Shown here: piece after piece, positions 6,249-46,495 of the stretch | Layout of the letters: each line of letters begins with the position of its first letter | Numbering within the stretch: position 1 is the first letter of the stretch | Assembly (NCBI GenBank): GCA_000296795.1 | Contig: BAFH01000003.1 | Coordinates: forward strand, 496,401 to 560,400 | Direction of reading: 5' to 3' | DNA length: 64,000 bases | Source of the DNA: Candidatus Jettenia caeni | GTDB taxonomy: Bacteria > Planctomycetota > Brocadiia > Brocadiales > Brocadiaceae | Notes under the pieces: model-generated | Database searches by the model: none | The model's input: the letters and a program-made list of their open reading frames with translations, nothing else | What the model was told of the DNA's origin: nothing | Translations under genes and position numbers: made by a program

Positions 6249-8303
6249 ATGAAACTTGATACAAAACATACCATAGATTATCCCAAAGATACCGATAATT
6301 ATGTATATGCTATAGTGGAGATGGTACGGGGACCCTTTATAATCCTTGATGGAAAACTGCAAGTGACGATGGCAAATCAATCTTTCCACCGGATGTTCAA
6401 TACCACAAAAGAGGAAACCGAGAACAAGCATATATATGAGCTTGGAAATGGCCAGTGGAATATACCGCGTTTGCGGATGCTGCTTGAAGAACTACTCCTT
6501 AAGAATATGCAGTTTCGAGACTTCACGATAGAGCATAATTTCCCAAATATTGGATATAAAATGATGTTGTTCAATGCTTGCAAAATTTACAAAAAGGATA
6601 AACAAGTGGAAATGGTTTTGCTAACTATTGAGGATATTACCAGGATAAAGCGTGCAGAAGAACAACTTTGCAAGTTATCTCAAGTCGTAGAACTAAGTCC
6701 AAATTCGATTGCAATCACTGATACAAGAGGTACGATCGAATATATTAATCCAAAATTCACCCAAATAACAGGCTATACATCTGAAGAAATCGTCGGTCAA
6801 AATCTCTGTATCTTAAAATCAGGTGGGATAACACACGAAGAATACAAATGTTTATGGGATACGGTGACTTCTGGTTGTGTATGGCAGGGGGAATTTCACA
6901 ACATGAAAAAGGATGGTGACTCTTATTGGACAGATGTATGCATTTCACCTATCAGGAATTCTGAAAAGGATATTATCAATTTTCTTGTAATTATGGAAGA
7001 AATTACAGAACGCAAACATTGTGAGACACACCTTATGTATCTCGCTGATAAAGACCCACTTACCAATTTATTTAATCGTCGCCGCTTCCATAAGGAATTA
7101 GAGCGTTGGGTTGCACATGCCCAGAGGTACGGTACTAATGGGGCATTGTTCTTTCTCGACCTGGATAACTTCAAGCACATCAATGATACCTTCGGCCATC
7201 AAGTAGGGGATGAATTGCTGATAAAGTTTGCCAATTTACTGAGAGAACAGATGCGTGAGACCGATATACTTGCCAGGCTGGGCGGTGATGAGTTCGCTAT
7301 TATCATACCGTATGCAGATGAAGGTAAAGCAAGGTCAGTCTCAAGAAAGATTATGGGATTGATGAGAGACAATATTCTTATAAATGAGATACAACCCCTT
7401 GGTATTTCTGTTAGCATTGGTATCGTTCTGTTTCCTGAACATGGGAATGAAGTGGAAACATTACTTACCTATGCTGATTTAGCTATGTACAGTGCAAAGG
7501 AGGAAGGACGTAACCGTGCTTGTATTTTTTCGCCTGCACATAAAATACAATTCGAGACGCGCCTCATTTGGGAAAGACGTATTCGGGATGCCATAAAGAA
7601 TAATCAATTTGTATTACATCTACAGCCCATACTGAGTGTAAGGCATAGCATGATCAGTGGTTATGAGGCATTGCTTCGTATGGTGGATGAAAAAGGAGAA
7701 CTTGTTACTCCTATTAATTTTCTTACTATTGCAGAGCGCTTTGGTCTAATCCGTGAAATTGACCGATGGGTAATACGCAACGGCATCCATCTCATTACAG
7801 AATATCAATTTGCTAAGAGAGGGTTACTTATTAATTTCAATCTCTCCAGCAAGTCATTTAGTGATTCAGAATTAGTGTTCCTGATCAAGCAGGAACTAGC
7901 GAAAACAAATATTAATCCAAGATGCCTTGTGTTTGAAATTACAGAAACTGCTATTATTGAAAATATGGTAAAGGCACAGTATTTTATTAAATCACTGAAA
8001 GCCATAGGTTGCCGATTTGCCCTTGATGATTTTGGTACAGGATTTTCTTCATTCAGTCACCTCAAACATTTTCCTATCGACTATTTGAAAATTGATAGTA
8101 GTTTTATCTTTGACTTACCATACAATTCAGCGAGCCAACACCTGGTTAAAGCAATGGTAGAGGTAGCGTGTGGGCTGGGAATACAGACTGTAGCCGAGGG
8201 TGTAGATTGTAGGAATACGATGCAGATATTGCGAGAATTTGGTGTTAATTACGCCCAAGGATACTATATCGGTCGACCTAGTAAAATATCTGAGATATTC
8301 TAG
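6249..8303 (+). CDS. PAS-PAS-GGDEF-EAL cyclic-di-GMP signalling protein
   Basis: A 684-residue cytosolic c-di-GMP turnover protein. It has a first PAS-like domain (about 20-130), a second clear PAS domain (about 142-255), GGDEF (about 265-430) and EAL (about 440-684). GGDEF is intact (345-349) and is preceded by the inhibitory-site RxxD motif (RETD 336-339). The EAL half keeps EALLR (473), the asparagine in NFNLS, FEITET, DDFGTG (593), the lysine in LKIDSS, the glutamate in AEGVD and the QGYYIGRP end. Both activities are therefore possible. No membrane segment is seen. It is of interest because three c-di-GMP riboswitches lie further along the window. The nearest Shine-Dalgarno (AAGGAG, 6222-6227) is about 21 nt from the ATG. 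Confidence 0.95.
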   Translation: MKLDTKHTIDYPKDTDNYVYAIVEMVRGPFIILDGKLQVTMANQSFHRMFNTTKEETENKHIYELGNGQWNIPRLRMLLEELLLKNMQFRDFTIEHNFPNIGYKMMLFNACKIYKKDKQVEMVLLTIEDITRIKRAEEQLCKLSQVVELSPNSIAITDTRGTIEYINPKFTQITGYTSEEIVGQNLCILKSGGITHEEYKCLWDTVTSGCVWQGEFHNMKKDGDSYWTDVCISPIRNSEKDIINFLVIMEEITERKHCETHLMYLADKDPLTNLFNRRRFHKELERWVAHAQRYGTNGALFFLDLDNFKHINDTFGHQVGDELLIKFANLLREQMRETDILARLGGDEFAIIIPYADEGKARSVSRKIMGLMRDNILINEIQPLGISVSIGIVLFPEHGNEVETLLTYADLAMYSAKEEGRNRACIFSPAHKIQFETRLIWERRIRDAIKNNQFVLHLQPILSVRHSMISGYEALLRMVDEKGELVTPINFLTIAERFGLIREIDRWVIRNGIHLITEYQFAKRGLLINFNLSSKSFSDSELVFLIKQELAKTNINPRCLVFEITETAIIENMVKAQYFIKSLKAIGCRFALDDFGTGFSSFSHLKHFPIDYLKIDSSFIFDLPYNSASQHLVKAMVEVACGLGIQTVAEGVDCRNTMQILREFGVNYAQGYYIGRPSKISEIF

Positions 8304-16534: not shown

Positions 16535-17347
16535 ATGGACAATAATTTGAATTTAGTATTTGGGAAAAAATGCTTTTCTCTTTCTTTTTTAGACAGGGAA
16601 ATGGAAGAGGCAATGAAGGGATGTATTTATCTCTCAAAGACCACGCGAAAGCATGATTATTTGTTTAAAATAGGATATCAGAATAATGGAGATATAGTTA
16701 AAGATTGCGAATTTCTTTATTTTAAAGGGGAAAAATGGTGTAGCTATATTTCTAAAGACGATGAAATTCAGATACTTTTTCCAAAGAATAATACTTTTTC
16801 AAATCCCATACGTATCCTTGCGTTTTTATATAGTGCATTTTATAAATTGGGGCATATTGATGGAAGAGGAAATAATAGCTTTTTGATTCACGCTGCAGGT
16901 TTACTAAGGCAAGGAAAGGGTTTTATCTTTACTGGAGAATCCGGAGCAGGCAAGACTACTGTTTCAAAGTTATCTTCTCCTGAGGCCGAAATTCTTTCTG
17001 ATGAATCAATTGTAGTATCTGAAGATCATGGAAATTATTGGATATCACAAGGGCCGATAAGGACTGAAATAACAAAGTTAAATGATACAATGGTAAATCT
17101 TTGTGCTATTTTTATCTTAGTACAAGACAAAATAAACTCATTAAGAAGGTTAAGTGGGGCAGAGATGGGCCATAAACTCATGGATAATATTATTTATTTA
17201 AATCTTTCTGCGGGTACCAAGAGGTTAGATTTCTTTGCAGAAAAATTGAGATTTGTTAATGCTATTAGTAATTGTGTACCTGTATATGAATTAAGATTTA
17301 CTAAAGATAAAACTTTTTGGAAAGAAATTGAACGTATAGGTCTTTAA
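16535..17347 (+). CDS. HPr-kinase-like P-loop protein of the peptide cassette
   Basis: 270 residues. The C-terminal half matches the HPr kinase/phosphorylase fold: LIHAAGLLRQGKGFIF leads into P-loop GESGAGKT (134-141), then ILSDE (153-157) in the metal-binding position. The N-terminal half (1-110) is not recognised. Proteins of this type accompany PqqD-like proteins in exopolysaccharide-linked HPr-rel-A systems, and PadeK-type relatives phosphorylate the C-terminal Ser of lasso-peptide precursors. A serine kinase acting on the peptide encoded at 19006, whose last residue is Ser, is inference. First gene of the cassette; the PqqD-like gene follows after 68 bp. Confidence 0.8.
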   Translation: MDNNLNLVFGKKCFSLSFLDREMEEAMKGCIYLSKTTRKHDYLFKIGYQNNGDIVKDCEFLYFKGEKWCSYISKDDEIQILFPKNNTFSNPIRILAFLYSAFYKLGHIDGRGNNSFLIHAAGLLRQGKGFIFTGESGAGKTTVSKLSSPEAEILSDESIVVSEDHGNYWISQGPIRTEITKLNDTMVNLCAIFILVQDKINSLRRLSGAEMGHKLMDNIIYLNLSAGTKRLDFFAEKLRFVNAISNCVPVYELRFTKDKTFWKEIERIGL

Positions 17348-17415: not shown

Positions 17416-17694
17416 ATGATTGTGAAAAGTAAATTTCCCTGCCGTGATGAGCAATGTATGTGGCGGGTTGTAGAGAACGAAGCTATTATTTTCTCTGAAG
17501 AAGGACAATGGCTTCATCAATTAAATGATATGGGAACTGAAATTTGGAATATGTGTGATGGGACATTAAATTTTACAGAAATCACTGATAAAATATGTGA
17601 TAAGTTCGATGTTGAAAGAGAAGTAGCCGAGGCGGATATCCAATCCTTTATTGATGAACTTTCTAAAAAGGGATTAATTACGTTAAAAGAATAA
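17416..17694 (+). CDS. PqqD-family RiPP recognition element protein
   Basis: 92 residues with the PqqD fold: an N-terminal beta wing (EEGQWLHQLNDMGTEIWNMCDG) followed by helices ending in VAEADIQSFIDELSKKGLI. PqqD proteins bind leader peptides and present them to radical SAM enzymes. The Shine-Dalgarno AAGGA sits 8 nt before ATG. It lies between the kinase-like gene and the radical SAM gene, as expected of a peptide chaperone for the downstream precursor. Confidence 0.88.
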   Translation: MIVKSKFPCRDEQCMWRVVENEAIIFSEEGQWLHQLNDMGTEIWNMCDGTLNFTEITDKICDKFDVEREVAEADIQSFIDELSKKGLITLKE

Positions 17695-17808: not shown

Positions 17809-18870
17809 ATGCAAGAAAACATGATAGATCAAATTCAGCAAAAATATTTTGATCGTAATCTTCCTTGGATAGTTCATTGGGAGCTAGTCTACGGATGTAA
17901 TTTAAAATGCCAGCATTGTTATACCTTTCATGAAGAAAGAAAGAACTATCTCTCTCTACCTCAAATGGCAAAAATAATCCAGCAGTTAAAGGAGATGGGA
18001 ACGGTGTTTTTGACACTGTCCGGAGGAGAACCTTTTGTGAGAGATGATATTATGGATATCATCGAGATGGTGCGTAAGGATTTTTTTGTGATTATCCTTT
18101 CAAACGCTACATTAATTGATTCTTTCAAGGCGAGAAGATTGAAAGAGCTTAGTGTAACTCAAGTAGAGGTAAGTCTTTATGCTATGGATGAGAAGATCCA
18201 TGATTCGATAACAGGCATAAAAGGATCGCATGTGCAAACAATAGAGGGGATACATCGTTTAAAGGAAGCAGGAGTGAGTGTAAGGATAAAATGCACTATA
18301 ATGGAACAGAACTACGCAGAATATACTAAAATAGGAGATTTTGCAAAAAAGTTAGGAATTCGTTTTTCCTCAAGTCCTGTTGTAAGTCCTCGGTTAGATG
18401 GGTCTCAGGATACCTATGAATATTGTACCGAACCAGAAAATCTTCGATCGTATTTTTTACAATGGGGAAAAGAGAATAAAGAAAAATATAAAGATTTTAA
18501 AGAATCGCCTTCTGTTCCTTTAGATAAATCATTTATTTGTAGCGCTGGCCGTACGTCTTGCGCTATAACACCTGATGGATATCTTAAACCTTGTACAATG
18601 CTTCCTGTAAAATTGGGAAACTTACTTGAGAAGAGCTTTAAAGAATTATGGCAAGTTAAACCAAAAAGACTTGTAAAAGATATCAGAGATGCTAAGATGA
18701 GCGATTTTTCTAGTTGTAAGGATTGCAAGTGGAGTCATTTATGTTCACCGTGTCCAGGTGTGAATTACCTTGAGACTGGTAATATGTTTACTGTGGCTGA
18801 AGGATATTGTAATAAGGTGAAATCTATCATGAATGAATTAGATATAGAAAGTAACGTAGGGAAGCATTGA
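17809..18870 (+). CDS. Radical SAM/SPASM peptide-modifying enzyme
   Basis: 353 residues. The SAM-cluster motif CNLKCQHC (Cys30, Cys34, Cys37) is followed by LSGGEPF. The C-terminal third is a SPASM-type auxiliary-cluster domain: CSAGRTSCAITPDGYLKPC, then CKDCKWSHLC, SPCPG and a final YC, giving enough cysteines for two extra FeS clusters. Such enzymes make thioether or C-C crosslinks in RiPPs, mature heme d1, or form PQQ. Given the adjacent PqqD-like gene and Cys-rich peptide, peptide thioether or crosslink formation is the best inference. The Shine-Dalgarno AGGAT precedes ATG. Confidence 0.92.
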   Translation: MQENMIDQIQQKYFDRNLPWIVHWELVYGCNLKCQHCYTFHEERKNYLSLPQMAKIIQQLKEMGTVFLTLSGGEPFVRDDIMDIIEMVRKDFFVIILSNATLIDSFKARRLKELSVTQVEVSLYAMDEKIHDSITGIKGSHVQTIEGIHRLKEAGVSVRIKCTIMEQNYAEYTKIGDFAKKLGIRFSSSPVVSPRLDGSQDTYEYCTEPENLRSYFLQWGKENKEKYKDFKESPSVPLDKSFICSAGRTSCAITPDGYLKPCTMLPVKLGNLLEKSFKELWQVKPKRLVKDIRDAKMSDFSSCKDCKWSHLCSPCPGVNYLETGNMFTVAEGYCNKVKSIMNELDIESNVGKH

Positions 18871-18906
18871 GCATAGTCAGTAAAATCTTATCGGAATTTA
18901 ATGATA

Positions 18907-18943
18907 GATCATTTTTAACGGAAAAATGATCACACGCAATAAA
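18907..18943. repeat. Left arm of inverted repeat flanking the precursor peptide
   Basis: The segment 18917-18943 is matched by the reverse complement of 19211-19238 at 26 of 28 aligned positions, including a 15-bp identical core AAAATGATCACACGC. The arm also contains its own perfect hairpin, GATCATTTTT (18907-18916) and AAAAATGATC (18922-18931), with loop AACGG. Confidence 0.8.
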
Positions 18944-19005
18944 TAATTGAAATACTTATTTAAGCCTGATAGTGGTTATAAAAGCGCCCAGAAAGGAGCG
19001 AAAAT

Positions 19006-19170
19006 ATGGAGAATTTAAAAGTATCAACAAAGCAAAGTTACAAGAAACCTTCGATTAAGTCTGAGCAATTAGAGATGAATGTATTGGCAAATCATGGTGC
19101 TACATGTTGTTGTTCTGGAAAATCACAGAGTAGCTTTATTCAAAACGCTGTAAGCAACTGGGTAAGCTAA
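19006..19170 (+). CDS. Candidate RiPP precursor peptide with Cys-Cys-Cys core
   Basis: 54-residue peptide read directly from the sequence, with strong Shine-Dalgarno AGGAG (18994-18998) 7 nt before ATG. The leader is basic and contains KKPSIKSEQLEMNVLANHG, which resembles the KPxIKxE-type leaders found next to PqqD/radical SAM enzymes. The presumed core runs from about residue 32: ATCCCSGKSQSS and a C-terminal stretch ending NAVSNWVS. Cys34-36 are the only cysteines. It lies 135 bp after the radical SAM gene and 207 bp before the S26 peptidase, enclosed by an inverted repeat. The peptide modification and cleavage sites are unknown. Confidence 0.82.
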   Translation: MENLKVSTKQSYKKPSIKSEQLEMNVLANHGATCCCSGKSQSSFIQNAVSNWVS

Positions 19171-19210
19171 TTTTTAGCCATTATTCGGGCGATAAGTGTT
19201 TTGGTTAATT

Positions 19211-19244
19211 TTTATTGGCGTGTGATCATTTTCCCGTTAAATGA
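19211..19244. repeat. Right arm of inverted repeat flanking the precursor peptide
   Basis: Reverse-complement partner of 18909-18943. Its internal palindrome is weaker (TCATTT/AAATGA) than that of the left arm. Arms are 267 bp apart and enclose only the peptide gene with its ribosome binding site. Confidence 0.8.
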
Positions 19245-19377
19245 GAAATTCCGTTAAGGTAGTAAATTTAGAGATAATCGTAGTAATATATAAGTATCCC
19301 CAAGGTAATCTTCCCTGCAAACTTGTGCTGATAATTTAACATATATCCAAAATACCATACTTAGCAATTTTCACGTC

Positions 19378-19965
19378 ATGGACTTACAAGAAAAATTATT
19401 GTATGAATTGGGTGAAGAGTACATAAAAGAAAAAGGAAAGATGTGGATGAAAGTGGTTTCTCCTAGCATGATGCCTTTAATCCATATTGGTGATAAAGTA
19501 TTGGTTAAATCGATTGAATGTGAGGCAGTAAGTACAGGAGATATTATCATTTTTAAAGGGAATGATATTCCGTTTATTACTCACAGGATAATAAGAAAGC
19601 GAAAGATAAATGGTGAGTTGCATTTTTTTGAAAAAGGTGATAAAAACGTATCCGGTACATGGATACATAAAAAATCTATTATAGCAAGGGTGATTGCTAT
19701 AAAAAAAAGAGATAATAGTATTATCATGTTAAACAAAACGAAAAGGATGAGAATTATTAATAAGCTTTTTACTGTATATCAATTAAATGCTTATATATTC
19801 GAAAGGATAATAAAGGTTTTTAAGGATTGGGTTAAAGGCTATAAAGCCTTAAACTTCCTTAGAGAACCGTATCGATATTCCTACAAGATTATTACAAGAG
19901 GGCAAAATCTTTGTAAAAAGTTATTGGTTCTCATACTTATTAAAGGAATGAGATTGTATGGGTAA
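19378..19965 (+). CDS. S26-type signal-peptidase-like protease without N-terminal anchor
   Basis: 195 residues. The catalytic serine box SPSMMPL (Ser30) is followed by GDKVLVKS and GDIIIFK, and the second box reads THRII with His69, the SipW/archaeal pattern (Ser-His) rather than the Ser-Lys of LepB. The N-terminus has no membrane helix, unusual for a signal peptidase; a basic C-terminal region (about 115-195) is not recognised. Its position between the peptide gene and wza makes it a candidate leader peptidase for the peptide, or a processing enzyme of the EPS locus. It overlaps wza by 8 bp. Confidence 0.78.
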   Translation: MDLQEKLLYELGEEYIKEKGKMWMKVVSPSMMPLIHIGDKVLVKSIECEAVSTGDIIIFKGNDIPFITHRIIRKRKINGELHFFEKGDKNVSGTWIHKKSIIARVIAIKKRDNSIIMLNKTKRMRIINKLFTVYQLNAYIFERIIKVFKDWVKGYKALNFLREPYRYSYKIITRGQNLCKKLLVLILIKGMRLYG

Positions 19966-34640: not shown

Positions 34641-36524
34641 TTGAATATTTTCTTCATTTTATTTATAGTTGTTGCAAGTTTATGTTGTAATTATTCTTTA
34701 TGTAAGCAAGATTTTGCCTATGGGAATTTCTATTATGTTGATTCAAATAAGGGCGATGATGGAAATATAGGAGACTTATCTGCTCCCTGGAGAACGATAA
34801 AAAATAGTGTTTCGGGATTACAACCGGGAGATACCCTCTATCTCAGGGGTGGAACTTATTATGAGAGTCAAATTAAAATTAGTAATCAAGGGACTAAATC
34901 GAAAAAAATTATCATAAAAAATTATCCCGATGAATCGCCAATTATTGATGGAGGTTATGCAGAGTTTAGAATAGTTCCCAATTCTGATTGGGAGATTCAC
35001 GATGCTAAGAAAAATATATATAGGTCGGTAAAAACTTATTCTTCTGCAGATTATGTCTATGGATATTTTGGGCCCGATAATAATTGTCGCCTTATCTCTT
35101 ATGAAAGTTATCATGATCTTAGCGCAGAGAATGAAGATTATACTGCTGTTGGTGATGTTTATCTCGGTCCCGGCATATTCTGGAATAGTTCTAATGAGAA
35201 GATATATATCAGGCTGAAGCCCAGTAAGCAACAAATGGCTATGGGGCATACTACTCCATCGAACAATGATCCGCGTCTTACAAAGATGTTTATTTTTTCT
35301 CATCATGAAATAATCATTTTAAGCAAGAAGTCCTCTTACATCGATATTGAAGGTGTTAATCTTAGGTATCAAAATAATGCTTTTGAATTTAAATCAGGGT
35401 CAAATAATATTCTTATAAAGAACTCAAATGTGTTAGGTGGCAGGACGCATATTTATGTAAATGACAACGCCCACGACCTTGTCTTTGATGGTGTTAAGAT
35501 TGAAGATTCTGTTCCTCCCTGGATTGCCTGGACTGATGTGAAAAGGGGTAAAAAACCAGCGCACCGTTTTCAAGGGACTGCAATATCGATAGAGGGTTCA
35601 GCGCATGATATAGAGATCAAGAATTGTATATTCGAAAATACCTGGGATGGAATTAATGCTACTAGCTCAGCATTTGACCTCCACATCCATGATAATGTAT
35701 TCAAGGGTACCCGGGATGATGTAGTTCAGTTAGGGTCCGGCTGCTCTGATGTTGAGATCAATCACAATAAAATGATCCTCGTTTCAAAAGGGATTTCCAG
35801 GCATGGATCAGGTTCTTCTCCTAAACCAGGGACAAAGTATATCCATCATAATATTATTGATTGCAGTAAGCCAATGCTCGGTGGAAGACGTGATCCAAAT
35901 AATTTACTTCTAGAAAAATATCAAAAATATCATGGTCCGAATGATGATGGGATGGTATGGGCGCGTCCATTTGGTAGCCACAGGAGTGGTGGATATGGCG
36001 GGGGTGATCCATGGAAGATATACCATAACACCATTATCTTTGGGAAGGAATTGAATGATAGGGGAGCAGGGCATGAATATGTTCTCGAATCTTTTTATCC
36101 GGGGTATCCCCAGGAGGTTTATAACAATATCATCATTCAGACGATGGATCATTGGCTGGCTAGAGATTGCAGGGTGGCAGATGGTTCACAGATATGTGAT
36201 GGGAATATCTACTATCGCTCGGTAGCCGGACCTAAGAACTATTTTTTTAGATCATGGGCGGAGAGATTGGGTGGCAGCTCAAAAGATTTCAAAAGCCTTT
36301 CTGCGTTTAAATCATCACCACTCTTTGATGTTTCCAGGAAATATTATGCACCTGGCTGGGAGAAGAATGGAACAGAAGCTAATCCTCAATTAGATAAAGA
36401 TTACTATCCTGCCCCTGACGGTCCTGCGGCAACTGGTGCTATACCGTTACCATCTAGTTGGCCTGGTCAGGACGGTAAAAAATATCGTGGAGCATTGCCT
36501 CCTAAGAACTTGAATATAAAATGA
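34641..36524 (+). CDS. Secreted right-handed beta-helix protein (paralogue A)
   Basis: 627 residues, TTG start followed by a signal peptide (about 1-20). NFYYVDSNKGDDGNIGDLSAPWRTIKNSVSGLQPGDTLYLRGGTYYESQI is the DUF1565-type opening of pectate-lyase-like parallel beta-helices; repeated short His/Asn-rich turns follow (NNILIKNSNVLGG, HDIEIKNCIFENTW, YIHHNIIDC). The C-terminal third is nearly identical to that of the minus-strand protein encoded at 39582-41483. It may be a polysaccharide lyase, epimerase or matrix protein of the EPS locus. Unlike its paralogues it has no riboswitch upstream. Confidence 0.82.
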   Translation: MNIFFILFIVVASLCCNYSLCKQDFAYGNFYYVDSNKGDDGNIGDLSAPWRTIKNSVSGLQPGDTLYLRGGTYYESQIKISNQGTKSKKIIIKNYPDESPIIDGGYAEFRIVPNSDWEIHDAKKNIYRSVKTYSSADYVYGYFGPDNNCRLISYESYHDLSAENEDYTAVGDVYLGPGIFWNSSNEKIYIRLKPSKQQMAMGHTTPSNNDPRLTKMFIFSHHEIIILSKKSSYIDIEGVNLRYQNNAFEFKSGSNNILIKNSNVLGGRTHIYVNDNAHDLVFDGVKIEDSVPPWIAWTDVKRGKKPAHRFQGTAISIEGSAHDIEIKNCIFENTWDGINATSSAFDLHIHDNVFKGTRDDVVQLGSGCSDVEINHNKMILVSKGISRHGSGSSPKPGTKYIHHNIIDCSKPMLGGRRDPNNLLLEKYQKYHGPNDDGMVWARPFGSHRSGGYGGGDPWKIYHNTIIFGKELNDRGAGHEYVLESFYPGYPQEVYNNIIIQTMDHWLARDCRVADGSQICDGNIYYRSVAGPKNYFFRSWAERLGGSSKDFKSLSAFKSSPLFDVSRKYYAPGWEKNGTEANPQLDKDYYPAPDGPAATGAIPLPSSWPGQDGKKYRGALPPKNLNIK

Positions 36525-39581: not shown

Positions 39582-41483
39582 TTATGGTGTTTGTGGAGGT
39601 AGTGCTCCCCGGTATCCTCCACCATCGAGACCAGGCCAACTAGATGGTAATGGTATAGCACCAGTTGCCGCAGGACCGTCAGGGGCAGGATAGTAATCTT
39701 TATCTAATTGAGGATTAGCTTCTGTTCCATTCTTCTCCCAGCCAGGTGCATAATATTTCCTGGAAGCATCAAAGAGTGGTGATGATTTAAACGCAGAAAG
39801 GCTTTTGAAATAGTATGAACTGCTTCCTAATTTCTCCTCCCACGATCTAAAAAAATAGTTCTTAGGTCCGGCTACCGAGCGATAGTAGATATTCCCATCA
39901 CATATCTGTGAACCATCTGCCACCCTGCAATCTCTAGCCAGCCAATGATCCATCGTCTGAATGATGATATTGTTATAAACCTCCTGGGGATACCCCGGAT
40001 AAAAAGATTCGAGAATATATTCATGCCCTGCCCCCTTACCATTCAATTCCTTCCCAAAGATAATGGTGTTATGGTATATCTTCCATGGATCGCCTCCGCC
40101 AAACTCAATACCCTGGTGCCGTCCAAATGGACGCGCCCATACCATCCCATCACCATTCGGACCATGATATTTTTCTGAGAGTACATCATCCGGATCACGT
40201 CTTCCACCGAGCATTGGCTTACTGCAATCAATAATATTATGATGGATATACTTTGTCCCTGGTCTGAGCGGTGAACCTGACCCCTCCCGGGAAACCCCTT
40301 TTGAGACAAAAAGCAACTTATTATGATTGAACTCAATATCAGAGCAGCCAGACCCTAACTGAACCACATCATCCCGGGTACCCTTGAATACATTGTCGTG
40401 GATATGGAGATTGTATGCTGTCTCGTTTGCATCAATTCCATCCCAGGTATTTTCGAATATACAATTCTTGATCTCTATATCATGCGCTGAATCTTCTATC
40501 GATATTGCAGTCCCTTGAAGACTATGCCCGGGCTGGGTACCACATTTGACATCACTCCAGGCAATCCAGGGAGGAACGTTATCAGAGACATGAATACCAT
40601 CAAGAACAATATCACGAACATCGCCACGGATCATAATAGGTGTCCTACCACCTGCTATTTCCATATTCTTAAGAGTAATATGATCTGACCCGGATTCAAA
40701 TTCAAAGACATTATTCTGATATCTTGCGTTAATACCTTCAATGCTTATATAAGAACTTGATGGTCCAAAAGTGATAATCTCATGGTCTGAAAAGATATAC
40801 ATGGGTGTAGAACGAGGATCGGTGTTGGATGGGATATTGTATCCCATAGCAATTTCCTGCTTACTGGGCTTTAGTCTGATATAGATCTTTTTATTAGAAC
40901 TATTCCAGAATATACCGGGGCCGATATAAATACTGCCAGACCTGGTATAATCTTCGTTACTTGCCCGAAGATCATCATAATCTTCGTAAGGAACAAGGCG
41001 ATAGTTATCGTTTCCGCTTCCAAAATACCCATAAATTTCCCTTGCGTTAGGGTATGTCTTTACCGACCTGTATATTCCTTTTGAAGAATCGTATACCTCC
41101 CACTGAGCGTTAGGGGTTGATCTAAATTCCTTGTAGCAACCATCAATGGCAACCGACTCATCAGCATAATTTTTTATGGTAATCCAATTTGATTTTTCTC
41201 CATGATTATTAATTTCAATTTGACTTTCATAGTAAGTTCCGCTCCTGAGATAGAGGGTATCGCCTGGTTGTAATTTTTCGATGCTCTTTTCTATGGTCTT
41301 CCAGGGATTAGATAAACTTCCGCTGTTTGAATCATTACCATTTGTTGCAACATAATACGTATCTGCCAGACATCTTTCGTTTGCTGATAAAAAAAAGGTT
41401 GAGGTTAAGCTTACAAAAGATATGAAAATGGAAAGAGAAAAAACGGGGAGATTCAGTACTTTTTGAATATGGGATAGTAACAT
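39582..41483 (-). CDS. Secreted right-handed beta-helix protein (paralogue B), c-di-GMP riboswitch controlled
   Basis: 633 residues. Signal peptide (about 1-40), then TYYVATNGNDSNSGSLSNPW, the DUF1565-type start of a parallel beta-helix, with repeats such as DHITLKNMEIAGG, HDIEIKNCIFENTW and YIHHNIIDC. It is a mosaic: residues 1 to about 147 are almost identical to paralogue C (44594-46495), while the last about 160 residues are almost identical to paralogue A (34641-36524). Shine-Dalgarno AAGGAGG is 7 nt before ATG and overlaps a predicted sequestering stem. A glycan lyase or epimerase, or a structural matrix protein, is possible; catalytic residues cannot be assigned by eye. Confidence 0.85.
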   Translation of the reverse strand: MLLSHIQKVLNLPVFSLSIFISFVSLTSTFFLSANERCLADTYYVATNGNDSNSGSLSNPWKTIEKSIEKLQPGDTLYLRSGTYYESQIEINNHGEKSNWITIKNYADESVAIDGCYKEFRSTPNAQWEVYDSSKGIYRSVKTYPNAREIYGYFGSGNDNYRLVPYEDYDDLRASNEDYTRSGSIYIGPGIFWNSSNKKIYIRLKPSKQEIAMGYNIPSNTDPRSTPMYIFSDHEIITFGPSSSYISIEGINARYQNNVFEFESGSDHITLKNMEIAGGRTPIMIRGDVRDIVLDGIHVSDNVPPWIAWSDVKCGTQPGHSLQGTAISIEDSAHDIEIKNCIFENTWDGIDANETAYNLHIHDNVFKGTRDDVVQLGSGCSDIEFNHNKLLFVSKGVSREGSGSPLRPGTKYIHHNIIDCSKPMLGGRRDPDDVLSEKYHGPNGDGMVWARPFGRHQGIEFGGGDPWKIYHNTIIFGKELNGKGAGHEYILESFYPGYPQEVYNNIIIQTMDHWLARDCRVADGSQICDGNIYYRSVAGPKNYFFRSWEEKLGSSSYYFKSLSAFKSSPLFDASRKYYAPGWEKNGTEANPQLDKDYYPAPDGPAATGAIPLPSSWPGLDGGGYRGALPPQTP

Positions 41484-44593: not shown

Positions 44594-46495
44594 TTAAGGT
44601 TGTTGTGGAGGTAGCGCTCCTCGGTATTTTTTGCCATCCCTGCCAGGCCAACCGTATGGTAACGGTACAGCACCAGTTGCTGCCGGACCATTGGGAGCAG
44701 GATAATAATTCTCGTCTAGTCGAGGGTCAGCTTCGATACCGGAGTTCTCCAAACCGGGAGGGTAGTATTTCTTGGAGGATTTAAAGAATTTTGAGGACTT
44801 AAATTCGGAAAGACTCATAAAATGTTTTTTACTACTTTTTTTTCTTTCCCTGTGTGATTTAAAAAAATAAGTTTTAGGATTGTTTATAGAGCGATAGTAG
44901 ATATTCCCATCATATATTTGAGAACCATCTGCCACCCTACACTCTCTTGCCAGCCAATGGTCCATTGTCTGGATGATGATATTGTTATAGACCTCCTGTG
45001 GTTGATCTCGATAAAAGTATTTAAGAATATATTCATGTCCTGTTCCTTTATTGTTTAGCTCCTTCCCAAATACCATGGTATTATGGTATATCTTCCATGG
45101 ATCACCTTTACCAAATCTATTAGCTTCATGCTTTGCAAGCGGACGAGCCCATACCATCCCATCACCATTCGGGCCACGATATTTTTTTGAGAGTAATCTA
45201 TCAGGATCACGTCTTCCACCCAACATCGGTTTGCTGCAATCAATAATGTTGTGATGGATATATTTTGTCCCTGGTTTGGGTGGAGAACCTGATCCATGCC
45301 TGGAAATCCCTTTTGAAACGAAGATCATTCTATTGTGATTGATCTCAACGTCAGAGCAGCCAGATCCTAATTGAACTCCATCATCCCGGGTACCTTTAAA
45401 TATGTTATTGTGGATATGAAGATCATACGATGTATCAACTGCGCCGATTCCATCCCAGGTATCTTCAAATGTGCAATTCTTGATTTCTATATCGTAAGCT
45501 GAATCCTGGATACTTATTGCAGGCCCCTGAAAAGCATGTCCAGGCTCCGTACCACATTTGACATCACTCCAGGCAATCCAGGGAGGAACGTTACCGGAGA
45601 CATGAATACCATCGAATACAATACCATGAACACCGTTACGGATCAAAACAGGTGTCCTACCACCTATTATATCGATGTTTTTAAGAAAAATGTGGTTTGA
45701 TCCTGATTTAAACTCAAGGGCATTATTCTGATATCTTAGATTAATACCCTCGATATGTATGTATGAGGATTTCTCCTGAAAGGTGATAACTTCATGGTTT
45801 GGAAAGATGTGCATCGATGTAGAGCAAGGATTTGTATCTAAGGGGATAGTATATCCCATAATAATTTCTTGCTCACTGTGCTTTAGTCTTATATATATCT
45901 TTTCATCGGAACTATCCCAGAATATACCCGGGCCAAGATAAATATTACCAATATCAGTATAGTTTTCATTATCTGCGCTGAGATCGCTGTATCTTTCATA
46001 AGAAACAAGCCGATAATTACCATTTTCGCTTCCAAAATACCCATGAATACCCTCTGCGTTAGGGTATGTCTTTACCGACCTGTATATTCCTTTTGAAGAA
46101 TCGTATACCTCCCACTGAGCGTTAGGGGTTGATCTAAATTCCTTGTAGCAACCGTCAATGGCAACCGACTCATCAGCATAATTTTTTATGGTAATCCAAT
46201 TCGATTTTTCTCCATGATTATTAATTACAATTTGACTTTCATAATAAGTTCCGCTCCTGAGATAGAGGGTATCTCCTGGTTGTAATTTTTCGATGCTCTT
46301 TTCTATGGTCTTCCAGGGATTAGATAAACTTCCGCTGTTTGAATCATTACCATTTGTTGCAACATAATACGTATCTGCCAGACATCTTTCGTTTGCTGAT
46401 AAAAAAAAGGTTGAGGTTAAGCTTACAAAAGATATGAAAATGGAAAGAGAAAAAACGGGGAGATTCAGTACTTTTTGAATATGGGATAGTAACAT
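44594..46495 (-). CDS. Secreted right-handed beta-helix protein (paralogue C), c-di-GMP riboswitch controlled
   Basis: 633 residues. The signal peptide and first about 147 residues are almost identical to paralogue B; the rest keeps the same beta-helix pattern but is clearly diverged (for example YHIEGI-type turns, SHIFLKNIDIIGG and HDLHIHNNIFKGTRDDG). The C-terminal region is the most diverged of the three (KSHRERKKSSKKHF). Preceded by a complete c-di-GMP riboswitch and, further up, by a second riboswitch with a truncated reading frame. The multidomain beta-helix gene lies downstream on the same strand. Confidence 0.85.
   Translation of the reverse strand: MLLSHIQKVLNLPVFSLSIFISFVSLTSTFFLSANERCLADTYYVATNGNDSNSGSLSNPWKTIEKSIEKLQPGDTLYLRSGTYYESQIVINNHGEKSNWITIKNYADESVAIDGCYKEFRSTPNAQWEVYDSSKGIYRSVKTYPNAEGIHGYFGSENGNYRLVSYERYSDLSADNENYTDIGNIYLGPGIFWDSSDEKIYIRLKHSEQEIIMGYTIPLDTNPCSTSMHIFPNHEVITFQEKSSYIHIEGINLRYQNNALEFKSGSNHIFLKNIDIIGGRTPVLIRNGVHGIVFDGIHVSGNVPPWIAWSDVKCGTEPGHAFQGPAISIQDSAYDIEIKNCTFEDTWDGIGAVDTSYDLHIHNNIFKGTRDDGVQLGSGCSDVEINHNRMIFVSKGISRHGSGSPPKPGTKYIHHNIIDCSKPMLGGRRDPDRLLSKKYRGPNGDGMVWARPLAKHEANRFGKGDPWKIYHNTMVFGKELNNKGTGHEYILKYFYRDQPQEVYNNIIIQTMDHWLARECRVADGSQIYDGNIYYRSINNPKTYFFKSHRERKKSSKKHFMSLSEFKSSKFFKSSKKYYPPGLENSGIEADPRLDENYYPAPNGPAATGAVPLPYGWPGRDGKKYRGALPPQQP

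Follow-up and report, generated by a model that had tools for sequence, protein, structure and literature searches.

Introduction

In bacterial pre-16S and pre-23S rRNA, inverted repeats placed around the gene put it in the loop of a duplex for RNase III. Operons devoted to peptide modification require far more substrate than enzyme. In the microcin C system, an excess of precursor mRNA is obtained by ribosome-controlled termination behind mccA (PMC6495379), and in the epeX-epeE region of Bacillus subtilis a terminator is combined with RNA processing (PMC12871923). In the icaR mRNA of Staphylococcus aureus, pairing between leader and trailer offers a duplex to RNase III, and a short UCCCCUG motif lies on the Shine-Dalgarno sequence and represses the gene (PMC3868564). 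The SynChlorMet, GeoRSP and HPr-rel-A cassettes described in NCBIfam carry HprK-like, PqqD and radical SAM/SPASM genes beside a small precursor gene.

The locus analysed here lies in a window of 64 kb (the whole stretch of DNA that was studied) from a genome of the same family as Candidatus Kuenenia hertensis (G018), that is, the anammox bacteria. No published study of an anammox peptide system in an exopolysaccharide locus was found in a literature search. The locus resembles the pre-rRNA stems in that repeats flank one gene of a longer predicted transcript and the gene forms the loop of a long duplex; it differs in that the loop is a translated 54-codon mRNA, and here we infer the cleavage. 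With icaR it shares pairing between the leader and trailer of one bacterial mRNA and a duplex available to RNase III, but in the present locus the predicted pairing takes in all of the leader and trailer, with little effect expected on the Shine-Dalgarno sequence. As in the mccA and epeX systems, an RNA structure adjoining the precursor gene would separate precursor mRNA from enzyme mRNA. Those systems use local hairpins or terminators after the precursor, whereas the precursor gene of this locus stands between two arms that are far apart, with the maturase upstream.

Gene cluster

The features of the locus, in window coordinates and all on the plus strand, are as follows.

16535 to 17347, plus strand: HPr-kinase-like protein (ScmC/HprK-related, under the curated cut-offs; profile match)
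17416 to 17694, plus strand: PqqD-family peptide chaperone (profile match)
17809 to 18870, plus strand: radical SAM/SPASM protein, presumed to act as the peptide maturase; immediately precedes the left arm (profile match)
18907 to 18931, plus strand: local perfect 10-bp palindrome, GATCATTTTT-AACGG-AAAAATGATC, inside the left arm; alternative hairpin (sequence)
18914 to 18948, plus strand: left arm, core (TTTAACGGAAAAATGATCACACGCAATAAATAATT), with ATCACACG conserved in the second genus (repeat search, cross-genus comparison)
18949 to 18991, plus strand: left arm, weaker inner extension up to the Shine-Dalgarno sequence, G-U-rich when paired with 19158-19206 (lenient alignment, folding)
18994 to 18998, plus strand: Shine-Dalgarno sequence AGGAG of the precursor gene, at the stem apex (sequence, predicted accessibility)
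19006 to 19170, plus strand: RiPP-like precursor gene of 54 aa, leader YKKPSIKSEQ, core ATCCCSGKSQSSFIQNAVSNWVS (ORF list, homologue comparison)
19158 to 19206, plus strand: right arm, weaker inner extension including the last codons and the stop codon (lenient alignment, folding)
19207 to 19241, plus strand: right arm, core (AATTTTTATTGGCGTGTGATCATTTTCCCGTTAAA) (repeat search, cross-genus comparison)
19378 to 19965, plus strand: S26-type signal-peptidase-like protein, encoded by the first gene after the right arm (profile match)

The genes follow the order HPr-kinase-like protein, PqqD, radical SAM/SPASM protein, precursor and S26-type peptidase-like protein, and the cluster adjoins exopolysaccharide genes. 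Its content is similar to that of the cassettes named above, but all matches are under the curated cut-offs. For SynChlorMet, scores of 40 bits against 125 (ScmC), 31.9 against 100 (ScmD) and 114.7 and 102.3 against 400 (ScmE/F) do not place the cluster in that system. As the matches to SynChlorMet, GeoRSP and HPr-rel-A all remained under their cut-offs, the cluster was called RiPP-like and assigned to none of them. The precursor itself matched no NCBIfam model.

The exopolysaccharide region of the window also encodes three closely similar large proteins (34641-36524, 39582-41483 and 44594-46495) that resemble right-handed beta-helix proteins and are likely to be recent duplications.

Inverted repeat around the precursor gene

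The earlier note on this DNA had described inverted-repeat arms at 18909-18943 and 19211-19244. The repeat search of the window confirmed them and moved them inward by a few bases, to core arms of 35 nt each at 18914-18948 and 19207-19241, in which 30 of 35 bases are matched (86% complementary). The identical run of 15 bp, AAAATGATCACACGC, is present in both core arms as had been reported, and differences at 5 of the 35 positions mean that the arms are not perfect copies. The length first given for the arms proved too short. In a lenient alignment, weaker similarity lengthens them to about 80 nt (18914-18991 with 19158-19241), and folding likewise pairs about 80 positions. The left extended arm ends at the Shine-Dalgarno sequence, the right one at the final codons of the gene and its stop codon. 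As the note had also stated, the core arms enclose only the 54-aa ORF at 19006-19170 with its own Shine-Dalgarno sequence.

The alignment score between the two 120-nt flanks was 55, against a mean of 17.7 (sd 2.7, maximum 33) in 5000 dinucleotide-shuffled controls. The inverted repeat is thus real and far stronger than chance would give. No other spaced inverted repeat in the 64-kb window is as strong, and across 464 kb of the same genome the precursor flanks rank second among 3849 ORF-flank pairs, after a phage-like ORF and before a transposase-like ORF. The phage-like ORF, of 387 aa (L186 5309-6472 in minus-strand coordinates, G000:C3), has a flank inverted repeat with a score of 61. No Rfam match was found within the element.

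Each arm had also been said to contain its own palindrome. This holds for the left arm, where the palindrome is a perfect one of 10 bp that was not found conserved in the second genus (K. hertensis); the right arm has only a weaker palindrome of 6 bp, TCATTT-N7-AAATGA (19226-19244). The possibility that these short palindromes act as terminators or hairpins was rejected, since they lack a T-run and are not kept in the second genus.

Conservation and copy number

The element is present in all three species of the genus of the window (G000, G001 and G002), in the same orientation. In K. hertensis (contig SOET01000008.1), which belongs to a different genus, an inverted repeat in the same orientation lies exactly around the homologous precursor, with arms at 7901-7928 and 8169-8196 of locus L040. 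The homologous cluster there comprises an HprK-like gene, a radical SAM gene whose product is 55% identical to that of the window, the peptide MDTMQTQKKVYKKPSIASKQVDLPVMACTCSGSGSLSSFLQLATNNFNSGT and a peptidase. Its leader-trailer score is 29 (p 0.003 in the shuffle test). In every arm of the two genera ATCACACG is present without change, and a CATA/AATA element follows it. The earlier note had regarded an absence of the arms from relatives as an argument against its readings; the arms are kept in the three species of the genus and in K. hertensis.

One of those readings took the arms as the ends of a mobile or exchangeable precursor cassette. On this view a small mobile element, or the relic of one, would have brought the precursor gene into the cluster as cargo before the genera diverged, and the arms would be the terminal inverted repeats of that element. 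The conservation of ATCACACG at both ends in two genera would suit such an element, and true mobile elements give similar scores, as the transposase-like and phage-like ORFs ranking near the precursor in the genome scan illustrate. However, the element is a single copy, and a search of its own genome for further arms, at up to three mismatches, found none, an outcome that the note had listed among those counting against its readings. Among 33 family genomes the arms occur only at the homologous locus, further matches being chance single ones with no partner arm, and no arms were found in viral contigs. The peptide is nearly invariant within the genus, and the repeat reaches into the last codons of its gene. 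No transposase ORF was recognised nearby in the window translations, no target-site duplication was visible by eye at the window or the K. hertensis locus, and no genome with an empty site was found. We regard a mobile or relic origin as unlikely.

Another reading was an invertible on/off switch. Inverted arms with an identical core of 15 bp would suit a segment that a site-specific recombinase flips. The segment lies the same way round in all four assemblies, each from a different species, however, and no recombinase ORF was recognised in the 64 kb; this check, like that for transposases, was made on the window translations by eye rather than by running every ORF against a library. A flip would also carry a promoterless gene together with most of its own arms, and the arms are imperfect. 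This explanation appears extremely improbable. With a single copy, one orientation and neither recombinase nor transposase recognised, the mobile cassette and the invertible switch are accordingly not supported.

Predicted RNA structure

The third reading, in which an RNA stem shields the peptide message, was the best supported of those offered. The region 18890-19260 folds its leader onto its trailer in a near-continuous stem of about 80 pairs, with an energy of -113 kcal/mol (z -8.4) that was reached by 0 of 100 shuffled sequences. When the sequence was folded in a context of 1.1 kb, 73 core pairs persisted in the window genome, and in K. hertensis 33 leader-trailer pairs were present in the 1.4-kb context fold. 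The stem is thus the preferred predicted fold in contexts of 1.1 to 1.4 kb in both genera. It is well supported that nearly the entire 5' leader can pair with the entire 3' trailer, the 54-codon gene forming the loop of a panhandle.

Such a panhandle has the same geometry of pairing between untranslated regions as icaR (PMC3868564), and the 3' trailer might in the same way repress translation by pairing with the leader and blocking ribosome binding. The predicted exposure of the Shine-Dalgarno sequence is nearly equal whether the 3' arm is present or left out, at 0.45 and 0.40, respectively, for the window, 0.41 and 0.39 in G001, 0.41 and 0.42 in G002, and 0.26 and 0.33 in K. hertensis. Because folding predicts so little change, translational shut-off is less likely, and we consider repression of the icaR type very unlikely.

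Substitutions in the arms

Between the two genera, 6 of 23 core pairs are altered on both sides, a number equalled in 1 of 500 shuffles, with ATCACACG unchanged, and the pairing collapses when the register is slid. The comparison shows that the complementarity of the arms has been kept between genera; as it covers only two divergent lineages, it is compatible with RNA pairing and with concerted evolution of DNA arms alike. A single event, concerted evolution of a DNA repeat or protein binding by the arms may account for the two-sided changes.

Within the genus, four substitutions at paired sites of the core and inner stem lead to G-U pairs, one (19233) restores a pair and three break a pair, one of which can be re-paired by a bulge shift. 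Among mismatches between the left and right arms, counted from the lenient alignment, G-U outnumbers A-C by 5:1 when the sense strand is read, a small excess (p ~0.1). Divergence outside the stem climbs to 13% in G001. Taken together, the within-genus substitutions, the G-U excess and the lower divergence of the stem point modestly to RNA of the sense strand. In the precursor gene, 0 of 17 and 1 of 17 fourfold sites had changed, which is too few to judge purifying selection on silent sites.

That the sequence of the ATCACACG core is conserved goes beyond what pairing alone needs and counts against an RNA stem, as do the three changes within the genus that break predicted pairs. The conservation would be accounted for if the arms were two operators, with a DNA-binding protein or dimer pair on the conserved TGATCACACG in both arms looping or blocking the precursor gene, and ATCACACG, invariant in both genera, does sit in short palindromes. 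However, this would leave unexplained why similarity extends over 35 to 80 nt, why changes on both sides occur outside the core and why the arms stop exactly at the Shine-Dalgarno sequence and the stop codon. Operators seem an improbable explanation.

Possible role of the panhandle

Three features expected of a processing stem of the RNase III type were found here: repeats that enclose a gene in a long duplex, compensating changes between two divergent lineages, and RNase III encoded in all four genomes. The 16S gene of the same genome has a comparable but weaker flanking inverted repeat (score 37). The core duplex, with about 22 bp and a single mismatch, is a type of duplex that RNase III cuts.

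On the reading that we favour, the arms would be the 5' leader and 3' trailer of the precursor message, paired over their whole length inside a transcript running from HprK through PqqD, radical SAM protein and peptide to the peptidase. RNase III would cut the continuous core duplex as it does in pre-rRNA, and cleavage would free from the operon transcript a monocistronic precursor mRNA with paired ends. Such an mRNA might resist decay, so that substrate could be made in excess over the enzymes. We think that the panhandle probably has a role in RNA processing or stability, as a processing or protection stem of the RNase III type. The pairing itself is more certain than this role, which we infer. 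The panhandle is probably an atypical form of an already known type of RNA control and not a jumping cassette or flip switch.

More tentatively, it might represent a dedicated form of bacterial mRNA: an rRNA-like panhandle would let the RiPP precursor message be cut out of its operon, the conserved ATCACACG duplex would be a specific processing or binding site, and the product would be stable and protected at its ends. The ways known for obtaining an excess of substrate rely on leaky terminators and on local hairpins downstream of the precursor; enclosure of the whole gene in a panhandle, if true, would be a different, rRNA-like solution.

Related loci

Relatives of the maturase were searched for in 84,980 species genomes, in the order and in an even sample of the phylum. 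Close ones were found only in the genus of the window and in K. hertensis, the others being about 33% identical or less, and no maturase was found in viral contigs. Small ORFs near the distant relatives had no flanking repeat except for one GIY-YIG gene, which was also the only other flanked case among 331 small ORFs near radical SAM genes. This gene, a small nuclease ORF (2458-2694) within L096 2425-2773 of a Syntrophales MAG, has inverted repeats of 28 nt with a score of 51.

The arm repeat is missing from the second cluster of K. hertensis and from the loci of the PqqD-linked peptides in the genomes G020 and G024, so the panhandle is not essential for this class of peptide. Weak precursor-like matches in G020 and G024 had been considered as further panhandle cases and were rejected, the PqqD-linked peptides there being without the repeat. 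In both genomes (L166 and L167), PqqD and HprK-like genes lie beside precursor-like peptides (MDKTKKTKKVYKKPVVKSEQ... and MQIKQKEKTKRAYEKPMISSEK...), and no radical SAM gene was recognised in these 3-kb loci, which are possibly remnants or a variant system. In G001, the radical SAM gene (L041, G001:C8:58050-59109) is split across two frames near codon 92, as a pseudogene or through an assembly error. In K. hertensis, two more short inverted-repeat elements (L040 7732-7898 and 13114-13268) immediately follow peptide 1 and peptide 2; neither has a precursor inside it, and both resemble small dispersed repeats.
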